Position numbers and translations under genes: made by a program
DNA from: Candidatus Omnitrophota bacterium
Lineage (GTDB): Bacteria > Omnitrophota > JACPQZ01
Assembly (NCBI GenBank): GCA_016190205.1
Contig: JACPQZ010000046.1
Coordinates: 1 to 39,885, forward strand
DNA: 39,885 bases
Reading direction: 5' to 3'
Shown here: one piece after another, positions 25,722 through 39,885 of the stretch
Layout of the letters: each line of letters starts with the position of its first letter
Numbering within the stretch: the stretch's first letter is position 1
Notes under the pieces: generated by a model
Database searches by the model: none
What the model was told of the DNA's origin: nothing
Seen by the model: only the letters and a program-made list of their open reading frames with translations

Positions 25722-25750
25722 TTGACACATGCAAGGCCGGTCGTTATAAT
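25722..25750 (+). promoter_or_regulatory. Consensus sigma70 promoter of the flavin/iron locus
   Basis: TTGACA (25722-25727), 17 bases, TATAAT (25745-25750): a perfect match to consensus in both hexamers and spacing, the only one in the window. It reads into the barrel gene at 25871 and probably on through the genes behind it. Confidence 0.85.
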
Positions 25751-25758
25751 CTTTTTAG

Positions 25759-25775
25759 TTGAGAAATGTTCTCAA
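25759..25775 (+). promoter_or_regulatory. Fur-box-like operator
   Basis: TTGAGAA, ATG, TTCTCAA form a perfect 7-3-7 inverted repeat starting nine bases after the -10, so it covers the predicted transcription start. The GAGAA-n3-TTCTC core is like many Fur-family binding sites, and a further AT-rich stretch (AATAAGTATTATT, 25774-25786) adjoins it. A Fur-family gene lies downstream in the same run. Binding is inferred. Confidence 0.6.
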
Positions 25776-25870
25776 TAAGTATTATTCGCATTAGTAGAAT
25801 GTCGCAGTTAGATTTATCCCTCAAAAAAACACTGAAAAAAAGCCCTTCACATGGGAGGTACGGCCCTGTT

Positions 25871-26779
25871 ATGACCCACATTTCCTTTTACGCAAATGAG
25901 CTGCGCTGTTGCATCGTGGTGGCACTGGCTGTTGCTGGAAGTATCGTCGTGGGGCCTGTATTCGGATGGGCGGGCAATGACGTTTACTTCGTTACCTACA
26001 ATCACCATATTGAAAAGGGTGAGACCGAGCTCATGATCATGAACGATTTCACCGAGCCGGCGGTGCGGTCGGGCGAAAACAAGCTGGGAGGCTATTTCTC
26101 CAACATGCTGGAGCTGGAATATGGCGTCACCGAGCAATTCGCAACCGAGTTCATGGTGGAGGCGTTTGAGGACACAACCAATAGCTACGGCAAGTTCACG
26201 GGATTTCGCTGGGAAAACCGCTACCGTCTGGTCAAAGACGAAAACTGGTACCTCAACCCGGTGCTCTACATGGAGTATGAGGACCTGGACCCCAAGACGC
26301 GCTTCAAGATGGAAGTGAGCGGCCGCACGGACGGCAAGGGCGAGCCGCCGGAAGAGGAGCAGCGCGAGCGCATCATGGAAACCCGGCTCATTCTCTCTCG
26401 GGACTTCGGCCCGTGGAACGTGGCCTTTAACTGGATCAATGAGACCGACGTGCGCCGCAGCGGTTTTACGGATTTTGGTTATGCCGCGGGCCTTCGCTAT
26501 TCCCTTCACAGTCATCAGCATGATCATGGGGAGTCAGAGGAAGCGGACTCCGCTGCTTCGGCCGGCCGCTGGAAGCCGGTTGCCCTGGGTCTTGAGCTTT
26601 TCGGCGGCCTGGGCAACAGCCGTGCCTTTGGCGGTGATTTTGAGGTACAGCCGCACTATCTCTCGCCGATCCTCATGTTCCATCCGTCGGAGCGTGTCAT
26701 GCTGCACATCGGGGCCGCCTTCGGGCTCAACGGCGTGAGCGACGATTTGATCCGGACAGGCGTGTCGCTGGAACTTTGA
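25871..26779 (+). CDS. Outer-membrane beta-barrel protein with His-rich loop
   Basis: A 302-residue protein: signal peptide (about residues 12-33, 'CIVVALAVAGSIVVGPVFGWA'), then alternating beta strands rich in Tyr, Trp and Glu and ending in '...IRTGVSLEL', typical of an outer-membrane barrel. A loop at residues 213-219 reads H-S-H-Q-H-D-H and is followed by an acidic stretch, a likely metal-binding loop. ATG 25871 has GGGAGGT about 11 bases upstream; frames starting earlier would read through the operator region. First gene after the Fur-box promoter; metal passage or sensing is inferred. Confidence 0.72.
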   Translation: MTHISFYANELRCCIVVALAVAGSIVVGPVFGWAGNDVYFVTYNHHIEKGETELMIMNDFTEPAVRSGENKLGGYFSNMLELEYGVTEQFATEFMVEAFEDTTNSYGKFTGFRWENRYRLVKDENWYLNPVLYMEYEDLDPKTRFKMEVSGRTDGKGEPPEEEQRERIMETRLILSRDFGPWNVAFNWINETDVRRSGFTDFGYAAGLRYSLHSHQHDHGESEEADSAASAGRWKPVALGLELFGGLGNSRAFGGDFEVQPHYLSPILMFHPSERVMLHIGAAFGLNGVSDDLIRTGVSLEL

Positions 26780-26836
26780 CAATGCGCTGGCCGCTTTGTT
26801 TCGGTTGTTGCGCTGCGAACGGCAGGAGGAAGGAGG

Positions 26837-28177
26837 ATGAAAGTGCATCGTAAAGGTAGGAAAAGTAAAATGTACCGGGTTCTGGCACTGGGTTTGGCGT
26901 GGTGGATCGGCTACGGCGGTATCGGACCTGTAGCGCAGGCGGCCACGCTGGAAGAGCTTGAGTCACAGATACAGGCTCTTCAGGTGCAGGTCCAGGAGCT
27001 CAAGCGCCAGCAGGAGATGGCGCGCATCGAGACGGGCGAGCCTGTACCCTATGAGGAGAGGGGGGTCTTACGCAACATCAAAAATCCAGCGGGTTTTGGA
27101 AATGTCACGGTGGGTGGATACGTGGACGCCGAGTTTGAGAATTTCGAAAACACGAACAGCACCTTCGACCAGGCGCGCTTCGTTCTCAACGTGGCGGCCG
27201 ATCTCCATGAGCGTCTGCGTTTCTACAGCGAGTACGAGATCGAGCACGGGGGCCCCAATGCCGCCGATGCAGGTGAAGCCAAGGTTGAGCAGGCCTGGAT
27301 CGATTACCGGATCGTGGACCCCGTCAATGTCCGGGCCGGCATCGTCCTCGTGCCCATGGGTCTTTTTAACCTGACTCATGATTCCGATATTCAGGATTTT
27401 ACGGCCCGGCCGCTCGTTGCACGCCGGGTGATTCCTTCCACTTGGATGGAGGTTGGAGCCGGGTTTAACGGGGACCTGGCGCTGGGGGAATGGATGGCGC
27501 AGGATGGACTCCTGCAGGACCTCCATATGTCCTACGAGTTCTATGCAGTGAACGGACTGGATGAAGACATCAGTGACACGGGGCTAAGAAACGCCACGGG
27601 GGCTATAGAAACGGACTTGAATAACGACAAGGCCGGAGTAGCGCGCATTGCCGTGAGCCCTTTTCTGGGGCATACGGTTGGTTTCTCCGGTTATACCGGA
27701 AGGCACGGCACTGGTGAGGACGACGATATTCTGGGTGGAGCCTTGGACTGGGACCTCAATTTCGGCCCCTTGCAGTTGCTGGGCGAATGGGTGGCATTTG
27801 ACGTCGACGGCTTCGTGGACGACGATAACTCCAGTACGACCGCCCGCGTGGCGGCCCCCGACACCCTTCAGGGACTCCTGGCCCAGGTGAATTATCACTT
27901 CTGGCCGGACTTTCTCAATCAGACCTTTCTCGGCCGGAATTTTGAAAACCCCATGCTCACCGCGAGTTTAAGCTACGGCTGGGTCCAAAACGAGGACGAT
28001 GGAGATTCGAACACCGGCGACAACGAGGAGGACCGCTACACCTTCGGGCTCAATTACCGGCCCGTCGAAAGCTGGGCGCTTAAGGTGGAATATCAGCTCA
28101 ATGATCAGGAAGGTACGGAGAGCCTGGAGCGGGGAGATAATGACGGCGTGATGGCGTCAGTGGCCATGGGATTTTAA
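26837..28177 (+). CDS. Porin with N-terminal coiled coil
   Basis: A 446-residue protein: signal peptide ending 'VAQAA', a short coiled coil (about residues 35-60, 'LEELESQIQALQVQVQELKR'), then a porin barrel ('VTVGGYVDAEFENFENTNS', 'LRFYSEYEIEHGG', 'YRIVDPVNVRAGIVLVPMG', 'WALKVEYQLNDQEG', ending 'VMASVAMGF'). It resembles carbohydrate/phosphate-selective or general porins (OprP/OprO-like arrangement). The C-terminal Phe suits BAM-dependent insertion. AGGAGG lies nine bases before ATG 26837; ATG 26870 is an alternative. The substrate is unknown, but the locus suggests a role in delivering iron or a redox carrier. Confidence 0.8.
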   Translation: MKVHRKGRKSKMYRVLALGLAWWIGYGGIGPVAQAATLEELESQIQALQVQVQELKRQQEMARIETGEPVPYEERGVLRNIKNPAGFGNVTVGGYVDAEFENFENTNSTFDQARFVLNVAADLHERLRFYSEYEIEHGGPNAADAGEAKVEQAWIDYRIVDPVNVRAGIVLVPMGLFNLTHDSDIQDFTARPLVARRVIPSTWMEVGAGFNGDLALGEWMAQDGLLQDLHMSYEFYAVNGLDEDISDTGLRNATGAIETDLNNDKAGVARIAVSPFLGHTVGFSGYTGRHGTGEDDDILGGALDWDLNFGPLQLLGEWVAFDVDGFVDDDNSSTTARVAAPDTLQGLLAQVNYHFWPDFLNQTFLGRNFENPMLTASLSYGWVQNEDDGDSNTGDNEEDRYTFGLNYRPVESWALKVEYQLNDQEGTESLERGDNDGVMASVAMGF

Positions 28178-28196
28178 ACGTGTCAGAGATCGATTC

Positions 28197-28224
28197 GTAC
28201 AGCGTACAGCGTACTGCGTACCGC
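28197..28224. repeat. Heptanucleotide tandem repeat (GTACTGC family)
   Basis: GTACAGC, GTACAGC, GTACTGC, GTACCGC, with degenerate units continuing to about 28245. It shares its unit with the block at 22828-22855, 5.4 kb away, and lies between the porin and the FMN-binding gene. Confidence 0.85.
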
Positions 28225-28253
28225 GCGCCGGGTGCTGCGCCCCGCGGCCGGAT

Positions 28254-28865
28254 ATGTTAGAATCTTTACTCGCGAAGTGGGTGAAGGGCTTTGTGCTTTT
28301 GGGTTTATCTTGGTCCTTCGTAATCACGGTGCTTCCACCGCTTACTTGGGTGCGGCCGGCTTATGCGGGGTGGGCGGTCACCCATTACTATGGACGGGAG
28401 GAGGCGCTCGCAGCGGCCCTGCCGCGCGCAACCTCTTTCCTCCCCGAGGTGAGAGTGCTCACCCCTGACGAGAAGCGCCGTATCGAGGCGAAGCTCAAGG
28501 CCCCGCTCAAGGAGACGTATTTCGAGTTTTGGGTCGGCCGGGGGGCGGGTGGGGAAACAGAAGGGTATGCCCTTGTCCTGGATGAGATCGGAAAACACCT
28601 TCCCATTACGTTTATGGTTGCGCTGAAGCCCTCGGGTGAAGTAGAGGATTGCGTGGTCATGGCATTCCGCGAGCCCCGGGGGGGAGAGGTGAGCCAGCGC
28701 AGGTTCTTAAGGCAGTTTCGGGGCAAGACCTCGGGTGATGCCATTCGTCTTCAGGACGACATCACCCATGTCACGGGCTCGACGCTCTCCTGCCGGGCCG
28801 CCTGCTTTGTCGTGCGCAAGGCCGTTGCGGCGTATGAGGTCTTGATGGCGGACCAGGCAATATGA
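28254..28865 (+). CDS. FMN-binding domain protein (covalent flavin carrier)
   Basis: A 203-residue protein with an N-terminal membrane anchor or signal (residues ~10-40) and an extracytoplasmic FMN_bind domain, as in RnfG/NqrC. The flavinylation-type motif is 'DDITHVTGSTLSCRA', where T177 is the expected FMN phosphoester site (S/T-G-A/S-T-x-S). Upstream, 'GYALVLDEIGKHLPITFMVAL' and 'FRGKTSGDAI' fit the fold. The enzyme that attaches FMN, ApbE, is encoded two genes on. The stop overlaps the next ATG as ATGA. It is a periplasmic one- or two-electron carrier. Confidence 0.85.
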   Translation: MLESLLAKWVKGFVLLGLSWSFVITVLPPLTWVRPAYAGWAVTHYYGREEALAAALPRATSFLPEVRVLTPDEKRRIEAKLKAPLKETYFEFWVGRGAGGETEGYALVLDEIGKHLPITFMVALKPSGEVEDCVVMAFREPRGGEVSQRRFLRQFRGKTSGDAIRLQDDITHVTGSTLSCRAACFVVRKAVAAYEVLMADQAI

Positions 28866-29347
28866 AGGACTATACACGCAGCGCATTGCGCTCTATCCCC
28901 CGGAGCGGGCGGCTGCTGTATGCGGCCTCTGTAGGTCTCATCCTCGTGGGGCTCGTGACCAATGTCCTCGTCGCTTTGTACCGCACCCAGCTTGACCCCC
29001 GCCGGGTAGCCATCTATTACCGGGGAGGCGAGGAGGAGTTGGTCTTTCCCAAGACGTATGCAGAGCTTCTGGAGAACAGCCATTTCCATCTCTTTATGAT
29101 GCCCGTGATTTTTCTCGTTCTGGCCCATCTCTTTCTTCTTACGCCGGTCTCGAGAAACTTAAAGCGGGGTCTGGTGCTGGTTGCGATATTGAGTTTGGGG
29201 CTGGATGTGGCGGGACCGTGGCTCATCCGCTATGTGTCGGCCGGGTTCGCAGGTTTAAAGGTTTTGACAACGCTCACACTTTCCGCGAGCCTTTTCGCGA
29301 TGGGCGCGGTGTCGGTGTATCATATGCTGCGGGTGCGCGCCTCGTGA
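28862..29347 (+). CDS. Four-helix membrane protein with His residues, possible redox partner
   Basis: A 161-residue protein with hydrophobic helices at about 20-40, 77-95, 100-120 and 130-155. Helix 2 starts with H74 and H76 and contains H89 ('HFHLFMMPVIFLVLAHLF'), spaced in a way that could bind a b-type haem or a metal. Between helices 1 and 2 is a soluble loop ('RRVAIYYRGGEEELVFPKTY'). I do not recognise a named family. Four-base overlaps with the FMN-binding gene before it and the apbE gene after it argue for a shared flavin electron-transfer complex. Haem binding is inference. Confidence 0.6.
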   Translation: MKDYTRSALRSIPRSGRLLYAASVGLILVGLVTNVLVALYRTQLDPRRVAIYYRGGEEELVFPKTYAELLENSHFHLFMMPVIFLVLAHLFLLTPVSRNLKRGLVLVAILSLGLDVAGPWLIRYVSAGFAGLKVLTTLTLSASLFAMGAVSVYHMLRVRAS

Positions 29348-30153
29348 CGTTCACCCGAAAGGCGGCGCGATATCTCATGGGCACGCTGTGCTCCATCGAG
29401 GCCGAAGGGCCGGACCGCGCGGCGGCGGGGCGCGCCATCGAGCGCGCCTTTAACCGCATAAAAGAGATCGAAAGACACATGAGCCGCTTCCGTCCCGAAA
29501 GCGAGGTAAGCCGCATCAACCGTTCGGCGGGCCGGGCTCCGGAAGCCGTCTCCGATGACGCGTTTTGTGTTATTGAGGCGGCGCTTTCTGTTTCGCGTCT
29601 TTCCGGAGGGGCCTTCGACATCACCGCAGGTTCAAGCGGGGCTAAACCCGATGGGGGTGCCGGGGCCTACTTGGACCGCGCCCGCAAGACCGTGTTTTTG
29701 GAAGAGGGCTTGCACCTGGATCTGGGCGGGATCGGCAAGGGGTATGCGGTGGATGAAGCGGTCTCTCTGCTCAAGGAAGAGGGAGTCCAGGTCGCAGTGG
29801 TGGATGCCGGGGGCAATATGTACGGGCTGGATGCCGAGGCCCGCGGCTGGTGGCGGGTGGGGATTGAACCGTGTGGGGGGCATCTGAAGCCCGTGGGCTC
29901 GTTTCCGCTTATGAACCGAGCTGTCTCTACCTCTTCAAACAGCGAAAGGCCGGGCCACCTTTTGGATCCACGGAGCGGGACGCCCTGCGACTGGGGTGGG
30001 AGCGTTACCGTGTTTGCGGAGTCAGCCCTGTGGGCGGATGCCTGTTCCACGGCCGCCTACGTGTTGGGACCGGGCGCGGGGGCGGAGTTTTTACAGCGCG
30101 CCGGAGCCTCTGATTTTGTATTCCTTCATCCCGGAGGAGCGCTTCATGGTTAA
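29344..30153 (+). CDS. apbE: FAD:protein FMN transferase ApbE
   Basis: A 269-residue ApbE enzyme, which transfers FMN from FAD onto a Thr of FMN_bind proteins. Motifs include 'RYLMGTLCSIEA', 'EIERHMSRFRPESEVSRIN', 'LHLDLGGIGKGYAVDEAVS', 'VVDAGGNMY', 'HLLDPRSGTP' and 'ALWADACSTAAYVLG' (the Mg2+/FAD site includes the ADA-x2-T segment). The start GTG 29344 overlaps the preceding stop as GTGA. It lacks the usual signal peptide or lipobox, so it may act in the cytosol or at the membrane before export; family members are usually periplasmic. Its evident substrate is the FMN-binding protein at 28254. Confidence 0.92.
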   Translation: MTFTRKAARYLMGTLCSIEAEGPDRAAAGRAIERAFNRIKEIERHMSRFRPESEVSRINRSAGRAPEAVSDDAFCVIEAALSVSRLSGGAFDITAGSSGAKPDGGAGAYLDRARKTVFLEEGLHLDLGGIGKGYAVDEAVSLLKEEGVQVAVVDAGGNMYGLDAEARGWWRVGIEPCGGHLKPVGSFPLMNRAVSTSSNSERPGHLLDPRSGTPCDWGGSVTVFAESALWADACSTAAYVLGPGAGAEFLQRAGASDFVFLHPGGALHG

Positions 30154-30583
30154 GCCTTTAGATGCGCCGGAGTCATTTCGTACACTTCTGGCGAGGAGAG
30201 ATTTGAAATTTACGTATGAGCGCAGACGCATACTGGATCTTGTCCAGCACCTCGGTCGGCATTTTGATGCCGACTCTCTTTACGCCCGCTTCAAGAGGAG
30301 GAAGGAGCGCATTGCCCGGGCGACCATCTACCGCACCCTTCCGCTTCTCCTTGAGGCGGGTGTCATCCAAAAATCCGCGGGCATGGGAAAGGGGGATTTC
30401 TTTGAAAAAACAAGTGCCCGGGGACATCACGATCACATGATCTGCGTGCATTGCGGCAAAATCATCGAGTTTTTCAATGAGCATATTGAGCGGGAGCAGA
30501 AAAGGTTGTGCCGGAAATACAAGTTCAGGCTCACGTTTCATGATCACCGGCTTTTCGGGTACTGTAAAAAATGTCAGGCATAG
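30146..30583 (+). CDS. Fur-family metal-responsive repressor
   Basis: A 145-residue DNA-binding regulator: N-terminal winged helix ('FTYERRRILDLVQHLGRHFDADSLYARF', shortened; 'RATIYRTLPLLLEAGVI'), then metal-binding dimerisation domain with H94-H95-D96-H97, C100-x2-C103 and C140-x2-C143 near the C-terminus. The two Cys pairs form the structural zinc site; the HHDH cluster contributes to the regulatory metal site. Whether it senses iron (Fur) or another metal is not certain; the ferric importer behind it favours iron. ATG 30146 has GGAGGAGC upstream and overlaps apbE by eight bases. A likely operator stands at 25759. Confidence 0.92.
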   Translation: MVKPLDAPESFRTLLARRDLKFTYERRRILDLVQHLGRHFDADSLYARFKRRKERIARATIYRTLPLLLEAGVIQKSAGMGKGDFFEKTSARGHHDHMICVHCGKIIEFFNEHIEREQKRLCRKYKFRLTFHDHRLFGYCKKCQA

Positions 30584-30592
30584 GAGGATGAT

Positions 30593-31648
30593 GTGAGAAA
30601 GGCGTTGTCAGTTGTCGGGATATGTGCGGTGGCGCTCGTGCTTGGGAGAGCGTCGCTCGCGGCCCAAGAAACCGCACAGGAGCTCGTGATCCTTTCGAGC
30701 CGGAAGGAGCCGCTGGTCAGACCCGTCATCGATCTTTTCGAAAAGGAAACAGGCATCCGCGTTATTTTAAAAACAGGGGAGTCCGCCATTTTGGGCCAGC
30801 AGATCTTGCAGGAATCTCCCGCGGCTGCAGCAGATATTTATATCGCAAAGGAGTCGGGCTCACTCGAGTATTTAAGAAGCAAGGGGGCGTTTGAACCGAT
30901 TGCCTCGACCGAGATCTTCGTGATCCCGCAGGAGTTTAGGTCGCGCGAGGGGTACTGGGTCGGCGTCTCGGGGCGGGCCCGCGCCGTGATCTATAACGAG
31001 GACCTCATCTCCTATGAAGATGTTCCCAAGACGCTCTGGGAGCTTGCCGATCCGCGCTTTAAAGGCATGATCGCGGCGGCTCATTCCGGAAATGAGTCGC
31101 TCGTGGCCTGGGTGAGCGCCCTGCGGCTCAGCTGGGGAGACGAGGAGACCGAGCGTTTCTTAACAGCGCTCAAGGAAAATGAAATAGCGCTCATCTCCGA
31201 CAGCCATACGGACGTCCGCAAGGCGGTGGGGCGCGGGGAATATGCGCTCGGGCTCATTAACCATTATTACTACCATCTTCAAAAGCATGAGCCGGATCCC
31301 GAGACGACCCATGTGGGCATCGTCTACCTGGATCAGGAGGAGGGGGAAAGGGGAGAGCTCGTGAATGTCACCGGAGCCGCCATAATCCAAGGGGCTCCTC
31401 ACCGGGAGCAGGCCAAGCGCTTCGTGGAGTTCCTGCTCTCTCCCGAGGCTCAGAAACTCTTCGCAGAAGTGAATTTTGAATACCCCCTAAGGGCCGGCGT
31501 CGAGACTCATCCCGAGGTCCTCGAGGCCATGGGCTGCGGCGGGCCCTCGGCCCTGGACTGTTTGAAAAGGATGAAGGTTCCCCTCGATGGTCTGGGGGCG
31601 GTTCTCGAGGGAACCCAAAATTTATTGGACAGAGTAGGGTGGCATTAG
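30593..31648 (+). CDS. Periplasmic ferric-iron-binding protein (FbpA/FutA-like)
   Basis: A 351-residue solute-binding protein with signal peptide (about residues 1-23, ending 'SLAAQ'). 'LVILSSRKEPLVRPVIDLFEKETGIRV' (shortened), 'WELADPRFKGMIAAAHSGNES' and 'FVEFLLSPEAQKLFAEVNFEYPL' are typical of the Fe3+ subgroup. Y225-Y226-Y227 in 'NHYYYHL' are positioned like the Tyr iron ligands of FbpA. The GTG start 30593 follows AGGAGGAT. It binds Fe3+ in the periplasm and hands it to the permease encoded next. Confidence 0.88.
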   Translation: MRKALSVVGICAVALVLGRASLAAQETAQELVILSSRKEPLVRPVIDLFEKETGIRVILKTGESAILGQQILQESPAAAADIYIAKESGSLEYLRSKGAFEPIASTEIFVIPQEFRSREGYWVGVSGRARAVIYNEDLISYEDVPKTLWELADPRFKGMIAAAHSGNESLVAWVSALRLSWGDEETERFLTALKENEIALISDSHTDVRKAVGRGEYALGLINHYYYHLQKHEPDPETTHVGIVYLDQEEGERGELVNVTGAAIIQGAPHREQAKRFVEFLLSPEAQKLFAEVNFEYPLRAGVETHPEVLEAMGCGGPSALDCLKRMKVPLDGLGAVLEGTQNLLDRVGWH

Positions 31649-31652
31649 GTTT

Positions 31653-33221
31653 TTGGGCCAGCCCATGACGAGGATATCCTGGTTCTTAAAAAGGATTCCT
31701 GCCCACTTAACCGCCTTCGTCATGGCGGTTCCTTTGCTTTTTATCTTTCTCTCGATGTGCAAAATCAGCGGTCCCCAATGGACGCGGCTGTGGCACGCGG
31801 AGCTTCCCGGTCTCATATCCAACTCATTTCTGCTCGTCCTGGTTGTGACTTTCGTTTCCCTCTTTCTGGGCTCTATCCTGGCCTGGCTCGTTGAAAAGAC
31901 GGACTTGGCGGGACGAGCATGGATGAGGCCTCTTTTGGCCGCTCCCCTTGTGATTCCGTGTTACATTGTTGCGGTGAGTTACGTTGGGTTTCTAAGCATG
32001 AATCATTGGCGCGTCTTCTATGGTTTCTGGGGCGCGGCCTCCCTGCTCGTGCTCGGGGCGTATCCTTACGTCTACCTGTTGGTCTGGGCGTCTCTGCGGC
32101 GTCTGGATCCTGCCCTAAGCGAAGCGGCTCGGTGCATGGGGGCGGGACCCCTGCGCAGGATGTTAAAGGTCGGCCTCCCTCTCCTCGCGCCCTCCTTTGT
32201 TGCGGGGGCGGTGCTCGCGGCCATTTATGTCCTCTCCGATTTTGGAGTGGTAACGCTCATGCGGTACCGCACGTTTGTAAGCGCGATTTATGGCGAAATC
32301 AGCGGGCGCTACCATTTTGAGGGGGCGGCCGGCTTGAGTTTCGTATTGATTCTTTTTACGTTTGCGTTCCTTTCCGTGCAGGACATATATGCCGGCAGGC
32401 GGTATGAGAGCCAGGGGGGTGTACGGGTCACGGCGCGGCCCGTCTCGCTGGGCGTTTTTCAAATACCGGCATTTTTGTTTGTTTGCGCGGTCCTCGGGGT
32501 GAGCCTGGTCATTCCGGTGGGCGTCCTCGTGAAGTGGTTCATAGACTCGCTCACGGCAGAGGGCGTCGCGCGGTTGTGGTCCTTCTCGCTAGGTGAGGTC
32601 TTGGGAGCGGGTCTCAAGAGCCTCCTCGTCTCCAGTTTTGCTGCGACGGCCGCGGTGATTCTGGCGCTGCCGCTCGCATACTGGACCGTGCGCGAACCCC
32701 GTTCCGGGTGGGGGAGATTGATATCCTCGCTTTCTCAATCAGGGCTTGCTCTGCCAGGGGTGCTCATTGCCCTGGGACTAGGCCTCTTTCTAGCCAAGGG
32801 CGCCCCCCAGCTTCACTTTAGCGCGGTTTCCATGGCGGCGGCATTCTTGATTCACTTTTTCGGCCAGGCCTATCAGTCGGTTGAGACAGGTCTTAAGCGC
32901 GTGTCCATCCCCTTGGAAGAGAGCGCGCGCCTTCTGGGTCTTACACCGCTGGCCGCTTTCTGGCGCGTCACCCGGCCCATCTTGCGGCCGTCTTTGGTTG
33001 CCGGATGGCTCCTCGTTTTTCTAAATTCCATGCGGGAACTTCCGTCCGCCCTCATCTTAAGGCCCGCAGGCTTTGACACGTTAACCGTCAAGGTCTGGAC
33101 GGCCGCCAGCGAGGGCTTTTACGCCCAAGCGGCGGCGCCGGCCCTTGCGCTCGTGCTGGTGTCGTCCCCGCTTTTGTGGATCGTATTTCATGAGGGTGAG
33201 GGCAGGACCCCTGCAAACTGA
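31653..33221 (+). CDS. Ferric ABC transporter permease (FbpB-like)
   Basis: A 522-residue permease with about 12 membrane helices in two homologous halves. Each half has an EAA-type loop for the ATPase: 'LSEAARCMGAGPLRRMLKVGLP' and 'LEESARLLGLTPLAAFWRVTRP' (each part of the block). This duplicated form is characteristic of FbpB/SfuB/HitB iron permeases. It starts at TTG 31653 or ATG 31665, four bases or more after the binding-protein stop. The stop overlaps the ATPase ATG by one base. Confidence 0.92.
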   Translation: MGQPMTRISWFLKRIPAHLTAFVMAVPLLFIFLSMCKISGPQWTRLWHAELPGLISNSFLLVLVVTFVSLFLGSILAWLVEKTDLAGRAWMRPLLAAPLVIPCYIVAVSYVGFLSMNHWRVFYGFWGAASLLVLGAYPYVYLLVWASLRRLDPALSEAARCMGAGPLRRMLKVGLPLLAPSFVAGAVLAAIYVLSDFGVVTLMRYRTFVSAIYGEISGRYHFEGAAGLSFVLILFTFAFLSVQDIYAGRRYESQGGVRVTARPVSLGVFQIPAFLFVCAVLGVSLVIPVGVLVKWFIDSLTAEGVARLWSFSLGEVLGAGLKSLLVSSFAATAAVILALPLAYWTVREPRSGWGRLISSLSQSGLALPGVLIALGLGLFLAKGAPQLHFSAVSMAAAFLIHFFGQAYQSVETGLKRVSIPLEESARLLGLTPLAAFWRVTRPILRPSLVAGWLLVFLNSMRELPSALILRPAGFDTLTVKVWTAASEGFYAQAAAPALALVLVSSPLLWIVFHEGEGRTPAN

Positions 33222-34282
33222 TGTTAAAGCCAAAACTCAAGCTGGACGAGGTAGTCTTTCTTTACGGGTCAAACGGCGCCCAGCCGTTCGTGCTTGGACC
33301 TCTTACATTTGAGCTGGGGGAAAGTCAAATCCTGGTGGTTTTAGGCCCAAGCGGATGCGGCAAGACGACGCTCTTGAGGCTCATCTCGGGTCTTGAGATT
33401 TCCCAGCGCGGATCGGTCTGGATCGGAGACCGTTTAGTCTCGGGCAGGAATACCCACGTCCAACCGGAGAAAAGGGGGGTGGGGATGGTCTTCCAGGAGC
33501 TGGCTCTTTTTCCCCATCTTAACGTCTCACAAAATGTCGGATTCGGTCTTGGGCGAACCGGCGCCGGAATGCGCACGGCGCGTGTTGCGGAATGCCTTGA
33601 GCTCGTGGGTCTCGGGGGATTCGAGCGCCGCTATCCCCATGAGCTTTCGGGCGGTCAGAAACAGCGCGTGGCATTGGCGCGGGCTCTTGCCCCGCAGCCG
33701 GCCCTCATTCTTTTGGATGAGCCATTCAGCAGCCTGGATGCCGATTTAAGGCGCGAGCTTGCAAGCGATATTCACCGCGTGTTGCGCGAGACGCGCTCGA
33801 CAACTATTTTAGTCACGCACGACCACGAAGAGGCCTTCAGCATGGCTGACCGGGTGGCCGTCCTTAAGGACGGCGGTCTCGTGCAATGGGGAAATCCGTT
33901 TGATGTTTATCACCTGCCCGTGAGCCGGTTTGTGGCGGAGTTTATGGGTCCGGCGGTTTTTGTAGAGGGACGGGTTGAAAAGGGGGGGATTCATTGCCGG
34001 TTCGGGAATTTCCGTAATCAGACGGATTTGCCAGAAGGCACGCCGGTCGATGTCTTGCTCCGGCCTGACGACGTGGAGCTCGAGCCGTCTGATTCAGGCG
34101 AGGCCGCTATCGTAGCGCGGAAATTCCACGGATCCGAAAACATTTACACCGTCGAGCTCTCCACGGGCGAGCGGATATTGAGCACCCAACGCTCGCACTG
34201 GGTGTATCCGGAGGGCGAGCGCGTGCACGTGCGCGCGGAGCTCGAGCACGTGGTGGTCTTCCGCCGAGAAGAGCTGTTGTGA
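33221..34282 (+). CDS. Ferric ABC transporter ATPase (FbpC-like)
   Basis: A 353-residue ATPase with Walker A 'GPSGCGKTT', Q-loop 'GMVFQELALFPHLNV', signature 'LSGGQKQRVALARALA', Walker B 'LILLDEPFSSLD' and H-loop 'LVTHDHEEAF'. Residues ~240-353 form TOBE-like regulatory folds ('VDVLLRPDDVEL', 'GERVHVRAELEHVVVF'). It powers the FbpB permease; start ATG 33221 overlaps the permease stop. As last gene of the run it closes the locus. It could serve another anion or spermidine-type substrate by homology, but the binding protein indicates iron. Confidence 0.92.
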   Translation: MLKPKLKLDEVVFLYGSNGAQPFVLGPLTFELGESQILVVLGPSGCGKTTLLRLISGLEISQRGSVWIGDRLVSGRNTHVQPEKRGVGMVFQELALFPHLNVSQNVGFGLGRTGAGMRTARVAECLELVGLGGFERRYPHELSGGQKQRVALARALAPQPALILLDEPFSSLDADLRRELASDIHRVLRETRSTTILVTHDHEEAFSMADRVAVLKDGGLVQWGNPFDVYHLPVSRFVAEFMGPAVFVEGRVEKGGIHCRFGNFRNQTDLPEGTPVDVLLRPDDVELEPSDSGEAAIVARKFHGSENIYTVELSTGERILSTQRSHWVYPEGERVHVRAELEHVVVFRREELL

Positions 34283-34330: not shown

Positions 34331-34357
34331 GGTCCTCCAAAAGACGGAGTGTGTATT

Positions 34358-34663
34358 ATGGGAAGCTTGATAAAGGCTTGTTCGGCTGCTGAAGTGCCGG
34401 CAGGGGAATGCCGCACCGTAGAGGTGAGCGGCCGACAGTTGGGGCTTTTTAACGTGGATGGCAAGATCTACTGCCTGGATAACACCTGTCCCCACCAGGG
34501 GGGTCCCCTGGGCGAGGGCTCCCTGGAGGGCAGTGTGGTGACCTGCCCCTGGCACGGCTGGCAATTCGATGTCACGACCGGGGTCTCTCCCGTAAATCCC
34601 GCCGCGCAAGCGGAGACGGTTGCGTGCAAGATCGAAGGCGGTTCCATCCTCGTTGAATTGTAA
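34358..34663 (+). CDS. Rieske-type 2Fe-2S ferredoxin
   Basis: A 101-residue single-domain Rieske protein: C44-P-H46 in 'CPHQGG' and C63-P-W-H66 in 'CPWHGW' are the cluster ligands, with 16 residues between the pairs as in NirD/BphF-type ferredoxins. There is no signal peptide, so it is cytosolic. It may feed an oxygenase or reductase not encoded here, or be an accessory electron carrier. Start ATG 34358 has GGAG about ten bases upstream; GTG 34349 is possible but less likely. Confidence 0.9.
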   Translation: MGSLIKACSAAEVPAGECRTVEVSGRQLGLFNVDGKIYCLDNTCPHQGGPLGEGSLEGSVVTCPWHGWQFDVTTGVSPVNPAAQAETVACKIEGGSILVEL

Positions 34664-37380: not shown

Positions 37381-39885
37381 ATGAGGCGAGTCGCCGCAGC
37401 CCTTCTTGCGGCGAACCTTATCTATTCTCCCTCCTCTTTAGGGGCCCTTCCCCAGGGTTACCGCGTTGTGGAGGGGGAGGCGGTCGCGGCTGTGGAGGGC
37501 CCTCACCTCCAGTTAGTAGTTAGCGACCGCGCCGTTCTAGAATTCGACTCCTTTTCAATTGCCGGCGGCGAGTCTGTTCATTTTGTTCAACCTACCTCCC
37601 TTGCAAGCGTCTTAAGCCGCGTAACCGGCTCCTATTCCAGCGACATCTACGGCTCCCTCTTCGCCAATGGGGAGCTTGTGTTTGTCAATCCCTACGGCAT
37701 CACCTTTCACGGCGGGAGCGATGTCCAGGTAGGCTCCCTCATTGCCTCCACCTTAGACATCCAGAATGCGCTCTACCTTGCCGGCCAGTTGGAGTTCGAA
37801 CGCGTTGAGGGCCTGGACCCTGCGCGCATCGTCCAGGAAGGAGCCATCACCGCGGGAGAAGGGGGCCATATCGCCCTCCTTTCCGATTCCGTCAGCAATA
37901 GCGGCACTCTGGAGGCCTATCTGGGGAGTATCGCCTTAGGGGTAGGGGAGAAGATAGCGGTGAGCTTCGATGAGCAGGGCCTCATCAACCTCGTGATCGA
38001 CGAAAGACTTGCCAATGAGCTTTTAGGAGATGAGCTTGCGATCGCCAATGAGGGAAGCATCACGGCCAAGGGTGGAAAGGTGGTCTTGACCGCCTACCTC
38101 GTGGAGGACGTGTTTGACACCCTGGTCAACAACACGGGCCTCATAGAGGCATCGAGGGCCGAAGAAAGAGACGGCACGATCTATCTCCTCTCCAATGTGG
38201 GTATGGAAAACCGGGAGACGGGCATCCTGCGGTCCAACGTCCTTCAGGAAGAGGGGGCCACCTTTGGGACGTGGGGCACTATGGATGGAGGGATCGATGC
38301 GGACGGCCATATCGTGAAAGGAGCGGCCTTCTACAAGAACCTAGACGGCGCCCTGACCAACCTAACAGGCAGTATTGGTTCAGACCAAACGGATGCCGAT
38401 AACATTGTGGTGACTGGAAATGTAACTTTAACGGCAGACAATCTGACTTTTACGGCCGACTCGGATGGAACCGGGGATGGGGCCTTCAGCATGAATGCGT
38501 CAACACAGATCAATGGGGGCAATTTTAACCTCACAATTCTCACGGGCGCCAATGCCACTTTAAGAACTCTCACGAGTATGGATCTCCTTACACTCGGACG
38601 CACGGGTTCGAATACACCCACCTTTACCGCCAATAACTCGATCGGCCTGACGGGATTCACGTTGAATACCGGAACCGCCCTGGATTTGAATGGCCAGACC
38701 CTGACGATGACGAGCGGGGACTGGACGAATAACGGCACCTTCACAGCCAACAGCGGAACGGTGGATCTCGCCCGTACCACTGGAGGGACAAGCGGAATTA
38801 CCGGGGCCACCACTTTTTATAATCTGCTCGTCTCAAATACGGCCGGCACGTATAGCCTGGTCGACAGCATTATTGTCACCAACGACTTAACTGTGTCATC
38901 CACGAGTTCTGGCAATAGCATCGGGACCTCCACCAGCAAGACCTTGTCTTTGGGCGGTGATCTCATCCATTCCGGTTCGGCGCTCATCGATAACGACTTG
39001 CTCATTATCATGGACGGGTCTGCAGTGCAAACAATCAACGCGTCGGGGGGCGTCGCTATGGGATCACTGCAGATTTCAAACACGACGGTGGCGGTTGAAT
39101 TGGCCAGCAATGTGCATTTGGACACCAGCCTTGTGATAGACGATGGCGCTGAACTCGATGTCACGAGTGGGAATTATACCTTCCGGGTGGATGATGATTG
39201 GACCAATAACGGAACTTTTACTGCCCGGCAGGGAACGGTACAGTTCTCCAGAGATACAGGAGGTCAGTCGTCTATTACGGGGTCCAACGCCACAACGTTC
39301 TACAACCTGGAGATGAATCACACGGGAGGCACTGTGCAGTTTATCGCGAATCTCACGGTGGAAAATGACTGGACCGTGTCATCCAGCTCTTCCAGCGGTT
39401 TCTCAGCGACAGGCACCCCCACTATATCCGTGGAAGGGGACGTCACCTATTCCAGCGCGCAGAGCCTTCCTGCTGCGTTCACTACACGGATGACCGGGTC
39501 CGGCACACAAATCGTGACGACGTCTAGTACGGGTACCTTGGGTGACCTCCAGATCTCTAATACATCAGGTGAGGTTCAGTTGGGGGACGATCTTCTGGTC
39601 GCCGATGATATCACTGTCGACGCGAACACAACATTTGATCTTCTGGGATTCAGCGTGACTGGCGCTGGCGGAACGACGTTTTCGAACAGCGGCACCCTCC
39701 AGCTTCACGGAGACCAGACCTTTACGAATGCCACCCCCACGCATGCCTCCGGAAGCACGGTTGAGTACACCGACACCACGGGCAATATCGCCATCCAGGA
39801 CTGGACGTACACCTCCGCCTCTCTTAGGATTAACGGCGGGGCCACCTACACTATGTCGGCAGGGGAAGTCATTGGAGGCACCTTA
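37381..39885 (+). CDS. FHA-like two-partner-secretion adhesin, 3' end outside window
   Basis: ATG 37381 opens a frame with no stop for 835 codons to the window edge. Residues 1-22 are a signal peptide ('VAAALLAANLIYSPSS'). Residues 23-150 match the filamentous haemagglutinin N-terminal (TPS) domain: 'LPQGYRVVEGEA', 'FDSFSIAGGESVHFVQPTSLA', 'VLSRVTGSYSSDIYGSLFANG' (shortened) and N103-P-Y-G-I-T-F109. Later come long beta-helix repeats rich in Thr, Ser, Gly and Asn. One unit with 'DWTNNGTFTA' and 'TTFYNL' recurs 159 residues apart (W448 and W607). It should be exported by a TpsB-type pore, which is not in this window. No strong ribosome binding site is visible. Confidence 0.88.
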   Translation, partial: MRRVAAALLAANLIYSPSSLGALPQGYRVVEGEAVAAVEGPHLQLVVSDRAVLEFDSFSIAGGESVHFVQPTSLASVLSRVTGSYSSDIYGSLFANGELVFVNPYGITFHGGSDVQVGSLIASTLDIQNALYLAGQLEFERVEGLDPARIVQEGAITAGEGGHIALLSDSVSNSGTLEAYLGSIALGVGEKIAVSFDEQGLINLVIDERLANELLGDELAIANEGSITAKGGKVVLTAYLVEDVFDTLVNNTGLIEASRAEERDGTIYLLSNVGMENRETGILRSNVLQEEGATFGTWGTMDGGIDADGHIVKGAAFYKNLDGALTNLTGSIGSDQTDADNIVVTGNVTLTADNLTFTADSDGTGDGAFSMNASTQINGGNFNLTILTGANATLRTLTSMDLLTLGRTGSNTPTFTANNSIGLTGFTLNTGTALDLNGQTLTMTSGDWTNNGTFTANSGTVDLARTTGGTSGITGATTFYNLLVSNTAGTYSLVDSIIVTNDLTVSSTSSGNSIGTSTSKTLSLGGDLIHSGSALIDNDLLIIMDGSAVQTINASGGVAMGSLQISNTTVAVELASNVHLDTSLVIDDGAELDVTSGNYTFRVDDDWTNNGTFTARQGTVQFSRDTGGQSSITGSNATTFYNLEMNHTGGTVQFIANLTVENDWTVSSSSSSGFSATGTPTISVEGDVTYSSAQSLPAAFTTRMTGSGTQIVTTSSTGTLGDLQISNTSGEVQLGDDLLVADDITVDANTTFDLLGFSVTGAGGTTFSNSGTLQLHGDQTFTNATPTHASGSTVEYTDTTGNIAIQDWTYTSASLRINGGATYTMSAGEVIGGTL

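Follow-up and report, generated by a model that had tools for sequence, protein, structure and literature searches.

Gene Content and Organization of the Locus

The sequence analyzed here (hereafter, the window) is a complete contig, C35, of 39,885 bp from a 1.65-Mb metagenome-assembled genome of Candidatus Omnitrophota. A run of nine genes, all on the + strand, occupies 25871-34282 and encodes, in order, an outer-membrane barrel (barrel 1), a porin, an FMN_bind protein, a small membrane protein that we call TM4, ApbE, a Fur-family regulator, and FbpA, FbpB, and FbpC (Table 1). A first-pass annotation of the locus had named these genes in this order and had remarked on their tight spacing from FMN_bind to the ATPase; both observations were confirmed. 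FMN_bind/TM4 and TM4/ApbE overlap by 4 bp each, ApbE/Fur by 8 bp, and FbpB/FbpC by 1 bp, and gaps of 9 bp and 4 bp separate Fur from FbpA and FbpA from FbpB. Wider gaps occur near the 5' end (57 bp between barrel 1 and the porin, 76 bp between the porin and FMN_bind), and no notable hairpin was detected in either of them. No Rfam elements were found in the window.

Table 1: Features of the operon and its promoter region in the window.
Feature	Coordinates	Strand	Remarks
Promoter TTGACA-17 bp-TATAAT	25722-25750	+	Perfect sigma-70 type, 12/12 matches; operon start
Palindrome TTGAGAA-ATG-TTCTCAA	25759-25775	.	Perfect, 17 bp, over the likely +1; Fur-box-type candidate operator
Outer-membrane barrel 1	25871-26779	+	No Pfam family above cut-off; contains His-rich HSHQHDH; open reading frame (ORF) listed from 25766
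Porin_O_P-type porin	26837-28177	+	Pfam E 3.6e-13; N-terminal helix; outer membrane
FMN_bind protein, predicted exported	28254-28865	+	PF04205 over cut-off; flavinylation-type Thr T177
TM4, four-helix inner-membrane protein, 161 aa	28862-29347	+	No Pfam, no known family
ApbE-type FAD:protein FMN transferase	29344-30153	+	Pfam E 2.9e-52; ORF listed from 29218
Fur-family regulator	30146-30583	+	Pfam FUR E 1.3e-29; sole Fur found in the host assembly
FbpA/FutA-type ferric-iron-binding periplasmic protein	30593-31648	+	Substrate-binding protein (SBP) Pfam families; phmmer against solved structures
FbpB-type permease	31653-33221	+	Double BPD_transp_1 domain
FbpC-type ABC ATPase	33221-34282	+	ABC_tran and TOBE_2

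The start listed for barrel 1 falls inside the operator palindrome, and the real start is therefore most likely 25871 (MTHISFYANEL...), in agreement with a barrel 1 relative in another Omnitrophota genome, G112 (locus L054, 12437-13309). The two barrels come from distant families of the phylum, each carries a His-rich segment, and they are 71% identical, whereas the remaining operon parts of the two genomes share 35-43% identity; this difference suggests transfer of barrel 1 or strong constraint on it. The porin has about 16 strands in a structure model of moderate confidence; of the parts compared between Omnitrophota members, it was the best conserved (47-54% identity to the window porin). 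The translations of barrel 1, the porin, FMN_bind, and TM4 contained no CXXCH heme c motif, the criterion for conduits of the MtrAB/Cyc2 type.

No FMN_bind protein other than this exported one was found in the host assembly. T177 is the Thr of a D-I-x(4)-G-[SA]-T motif (GST in the window), and this Thr was kept in the aligned members. The N-terminus has a hydrophobic stretch ending in AYA that we read as a signal peptide, and the nearest solved structures by phmmer were RnfG proteins. ApbE, which probably starts at the GTG at 29344, had FAD:protein FMN transferases as its nearest solved structures in the same kind of search. Between them lies TM4, whose family conserves E68, H74, K101, D115, and W120, H74 being the sole His kept throughout. 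TM4 matched none of the NapH, MsrQ, PepSY, DsbD, Nqr/Rnf, and DUF4405 families, and its relatives gave only unrelated matches below threshold. Its AlphaFold model (mean pLDDT 69) returned only weak four-helix matches in Foldseek, none of them significant, so the fold was uninformative on function. We also considered a heme-b protein; this identity was not supported, and TM4 lacks a full di-heme His set.

The best solved relatives of the regulator in phmmer searches were ferric uptake regulators, and its best NCBIfam match was the ferric regulator PRK09462, below the cut-off of that family. Together with the Fur-box operator described below, these relatives place it as a predicted iron-type Fur rather than Zur or PerR. 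Similarly, FbpA was closest to ferric-binding SBPs (best E 2.4e-45), and Tyr 225-227 fall in the region of the FbpA Tyr-Tyr motif. SBP kinship, a double-domain permease, and a TOBE ATPase jointly identify FbpABC as a putative importer of the FbpABC/FutABC type.

A Barrel and FMN_bind Module Recurs across the Phylum

Relatives were sought in 384 Omnitrophota genomes, all from classes other than that of the window, with a profile built from nine FMN_bind relatives. The FMN_bind subfamily was found in about 47 places at E < ~1e-22, where it separates from generic RnfG-like FMN_bind proteins, and the surroundings were read at 41 loci of 40 genomes. In 38 of the 41 loci, the gene run that holds FMN_bind also holds a gene for an outer-membrane barrel (34 by automatic count, plus L042, L058, L060, and L063 after map reading); most of these barrels belong to the Porin_O_P family and some are of the DUF6662 type. 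Two of the three loci without a barrel lie at or near contig ends. ApbE was found in about 25 loci and a small four-helix protein in about 19, the latter being either TM4 or a second kind, TMB, which has four His and weak matches to cytochrome b561 and DUF4405. TMB accompanies some Omnitrophota modules and the proteobacterial ones, and the order barrel-FMN_bind-ApbE-TMB was also seen on alpha- and betaproteobacterial plasmids.

The first-pass annotation had read the locus as a combined flavin and iron operon whose gene order might be conserved in relatives. The link to iron and Fur held, as described below; the complete window gene order, sought in all 384 genomes, was not found. The arrangement in G112 runs FUR-barrel1-PORIN-lipoprotein-FMN_bind-TM4-ApbE followed by ZIP; it has the core of the window, but ZIP stands in the place of FbpABC. 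FbpA was present in 13 of the 384 genomes, and none of the 13 FbpA regions outside the window (12 genomes) stands beside a flavin module. The closest FbpABC found belongs to G195 (59%, 50%, and 44% identity for FbpA, FbpB, and FbpC, respectively), where genes named from sequence as a TonB-dependent receptor, ExbB, ExbD, and TonB precede FbpABC in one run (L108; G195:C23, 5380-13406). G019 carries Fur-FbpABC alone and, separately, FTR1-PORIN-TM4-FMN_bind-ApbE. Because G112 has the core with ZIP, and G195 and G019 have FbpABC apart from the module, the window locus looks like a fusion under one promoter of two blocks that are each known separately.

Association of the Module with Fur and Iron Transporters

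A Fur gene lay ≤10 kb from FMN_bind in 13 of the 41 loci, spread over 8 GTDB families, as against 0.5 expected; its placement varied (upstream, between TM4 and FMN_bind, or downstream). FeoB was found within the same distance in 10 loci of 2 families (0.35 expected), and FTR1 in 4 loci, each from a different family, directly upstream of the porin (0.1 expected). With expected counts that assume uniform placement, the binomial P values were 3e-15 for Fur, 2e-12 for FeoB, and 4e-6 for FTR1; after collapsing to families they became 2e-8, 0.05, and 3e-6, respectively. The counts thus reject a chance association with the module, although the significance for FeoB is marginal once loci are collapsed to families. 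In addition, ZIP adjoins the module in 2-3 loci, and half of the genomes (20/40) have Fur, FeoB, FTR1, or FbpABC in the neighborhood. In family f40 (L075-L079), FeoB is split into adjacent ORFs for the G-domain and the membrane part in 5/5 members, and the split gene adjoins a DtxR-type repressor with a FeoA domain.

A Fur-Box-Type Candidate Operator Upstream of the Modules

The operator-type site at the window promoter, TGAGAAATGTTCTCA, with its Fur-box palindrome at 25760-25774, overlaps the likely transcription start, and the exact 6-3-6 site occurs once in the host assembly, at this position. Over 715 kb of module loci, all 10 exact TGARAANNNTTYTCA sites precede a module gene by ≤300 bp. 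The carriers are the window, L042 (TGAGAATCATTCTCA), L049, L058 (TGAGAATGATTCTCA), L060, L074, and L075, L076, L077, and L079, the last four having TGAAAATCATTTTCA; as L075-L079 are one family, their operator sites are not independent. The looser pattern TGANAANNNTTNTCA gave 11 sites, 10 of which are upstream of module genes, in comparison with 0, 2, 0, 0, and 1 matches for permuted half-sites. Sites of the form TGA[AG]AATNATT[CT]TCA are present in relatives, and judged by the consensus sequence, the palindromes upstream of the modules are classic Fur boxes.

In the host genome, versions of the palindrome with 1-2 mismatches were no commoner than a reversed control, and we therefore claim no wider regulon there. 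No copy of the operator was seen in the 12 kb read around the host FeoB gene on contig C27.

The first-pass annotation had tied the flavin module and the barrels to iron and Fur, and the relatives bear this out, with Fur in 13 of the 41 loci, FeoAB, FTR1, or ZIP beside the core, and Fur-box palindromes directly upstream. The Fur, FeoB, and FTR1 counts, the barrel linkage, and the operator sites give good support to a Fur-controlled role in acquiring iron by means of flavin redox chemistry.

Proposed Mechanism and Alternative Explanations

We propose, with a probability of about 0.64, that the locus is a Fur-repressed operon for redox-assisted iron acquisition. Under iron scarcity, Fur would come off the palindrome at 25759-25775, allowing transcription of the operon. 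The two outer-membrane barrels would then admit iron or small ferric complexes, and ApbE would flavinylate the exported FMN_bind protein on T177. TM4 may hand electrons from the membrane quinol pool to this flavin, which in turn would reduce Fe(III) at the outer membrane or in the periplasm and so release iron held in oxides or chelates. The freed iron would be bound by FbpA and imported by FbpBC. According to this model, the barrel and FMN_bind protein would serve as a reusable front end, supplying FeoB, FTR1, or ZIP in relatives. Taken further, the module might represent a separate class of reductive iron uptake: a dedicated flavinylated protein docked at a Porin_O_P-type barrel would make up a Fur-controlled front end interchangeable among the inner-membrane transporters FeoB, FTR1, ZIP, and FbpABC, with TM4, as a new family, linking quinol to flavin; we put this forward tentatively, as less likely than not.

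Several findings weigh against reductive uptake by this operon. FbpA binds Fe(III) by homology, and a reductase upstream of it therefore needs either reoxidation of the iron or an FbpA that also accepts Fe(II). TM4 matches no known electron-transfer family and has no recognized cofactor site. FbpA and FbpB adjoin the module in the window alone (0/40 other loci), and many loci (e.g., L057, L062, L066, L067, and L071) have no iron gene nearby. The window ApbE shows no signal peptide, whichever start is taken; FMN attachment outside the cytoplasm, which the first-pass annotation had assumed, is therefore not evident for this enzyme. An ApbE encoded beside TM4 or TMB usually begins at the catalytic domain without a signal peptide, though its presumed FMN_bind target is exported: signal-less forms occur in the window, L043, L048-L056, L063, L065, and L007-L009, and forms with an N-terminal anchor or signal in L042, L044-L047, L058, and L067-L073.

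Alternatively, electrons might flow the other way, the flavin protein oxidizing the iron or acting as a redox buffer. Fe(II) entering through the barrels would be converted to Fe(III) for FbpA or FTR1, and the electrons would pass via TM4 into the membrane. The transporters in the window and in the FTR1 loci do handle Fe(III) or need oxidation, and Omnitrophota often live in anoxic settings with abundant Fe(II). However, oxidation would be useless in the ten FeoB loci, as FeoB is an Fe(II) transporter, and protein-bound flavins of the FMN_bind kind usually reduce Fe(III). We consider this direction of electron flow unlikely.

A saving of iron, rather than its uptake, could also place a flavin module under Fur, which would then turn on a periplasmic flavin electron chain that replaces heme cytochromes, FbpABC being merely coregulated. 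The Fur gene and the Fur box are consistent with such a switch, the host assembly encodes a molybdopterin-type oxidoreductase operon as a possible user, and flavinylated carriers have been proposed as iron-saving substitutes (PMC8238504). The most constant partner of the module, however, is a barrel, followed by several unrelated kinds of iron transporter and not by terminal oxidoreductases, which makes an iron-sparing carrier quite improbable. It is very improbable that the porin and flavoprotein form an extracellular electron-transfer wire for respiration, like porin-cytochrome conduits, with the iron genes as chance neighbors, because the module occurs with Fur, Fur boxes, FeoB, and FTR1 far more often than chance predicts and a single small FMN domain without another redox domain would presumably make a poor outer-membrane wire, even though porin and redox protein genes adjoin in most loci.

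Neighboring Genes and Host

A gene for a Rieske-type ferredoxin (34349-34663) lies 66 bp 3' of FbpC and is possibly cotranscribed with the operon. Further downstream, 37381-39885 holds the 5' part of a two-partner-secretion (TPS) exoprotein gene with a TPS domain, truncated where the contig stops, and long antisense ORFs run through this region at 38331-39164. Elsewhere in the host (L109; G000:C27, 1-6613), FeoB is divergent from a Porin_O_P-like gene, after which come genes for ferredoxin-type and molybdopterin oxidoreductase subunits. Judging from these C27 oxidoreductase genes, the host seems able to respire anaerobically.

In family f8 (L044, L045, L046, and L047), porin-ApbE-FMN_bind-TM4 stands beside genes for NusG_II and heptaprenyl-diphosphate synthase I/CbiQ proteins and beside apparent Rnf genes. 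As these neighbors are not iron genes, the module may serve another purpose in f8.

Comparison with Known Systems

Flavinylation gene clusters have been described with VIT1 (MsrQ-like), with P19-FTR1 and FMN_bind, and with PepSY-like/TonB proteins, and assimilatory iron redox chemistry was argued for them (PMC8238504); the main text of that paper makes no mention of "porin", "FeoB", or "ABC transporter". The window resembles those clusters in bringing together ApbE, an exported FMN_bind protein as its presumed substrate, and an iron transporter. It differs from them in that the module lacks a PepSY, MsrQ, NapH, DsbD, or Nqr/Rnf membrane component, its constant partner is a barrel, its transporter is FbpABC, FeoB, FTR1, or ZIP, and it adjoins Fur genes and Fur boxes.

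The reductive uptake model for cyanobacteria comprises porins or TonB-dependent transporters (TBDT), the respiratory-oxidase-linked reductase ARTO, FutABC, FeoB, ZIP, and FTR1 (PMC7676907). Omnitrophota modules share its set of inner-membrane transporters and its logic of entry through porins, but the flavoprotein encoded with the porin would take the place of ARTO, and the Omnitrophota genes are clustered with Fur. Like the FbpABC operon of G195, the window has an SBP, a double permease, and a TOBE ATPase in one operon; in contrast, barrels and a flavin module replace the TonB receptor-ExbB-ExbD-TonB outer-membrane step of G195. TM4 recalls DUF4405 and FezC, membrane cytochromes associated with flavinylation and ferrosomes (PMC11334425), in being a small multihelix membrane protein encoded beside ApbE. 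Unlike TMB, the window TM4 has no match to cytochrome b561 or DUF4405, and only one His is kept throughout its family.

In the literature, we found no description of a porin and an FMN-binding protein combined with Fur, FeoB, or ApbE. Thus, the role was foreseen, whereas a porin-coupled Fur-box module with interchangeable transporters is, as far as our searches show, undescribed.

Members of the Omnitrophota are found widely, have almost all escaped cultivation, and are still poorly known. The present analysis provides a Fur-box motif for this phylum and points to TM4 as a putative new membrane protein family and a candidate electron carrier. With the module, the concept of flavinylated reductases for iron assimilation would gain an outer-membrane component, and the occurrence of the module beside four kinds of metal transporter would offer a testable explanation of how Omnitrophota acquire iron when the locus encodes no TonB receptor.

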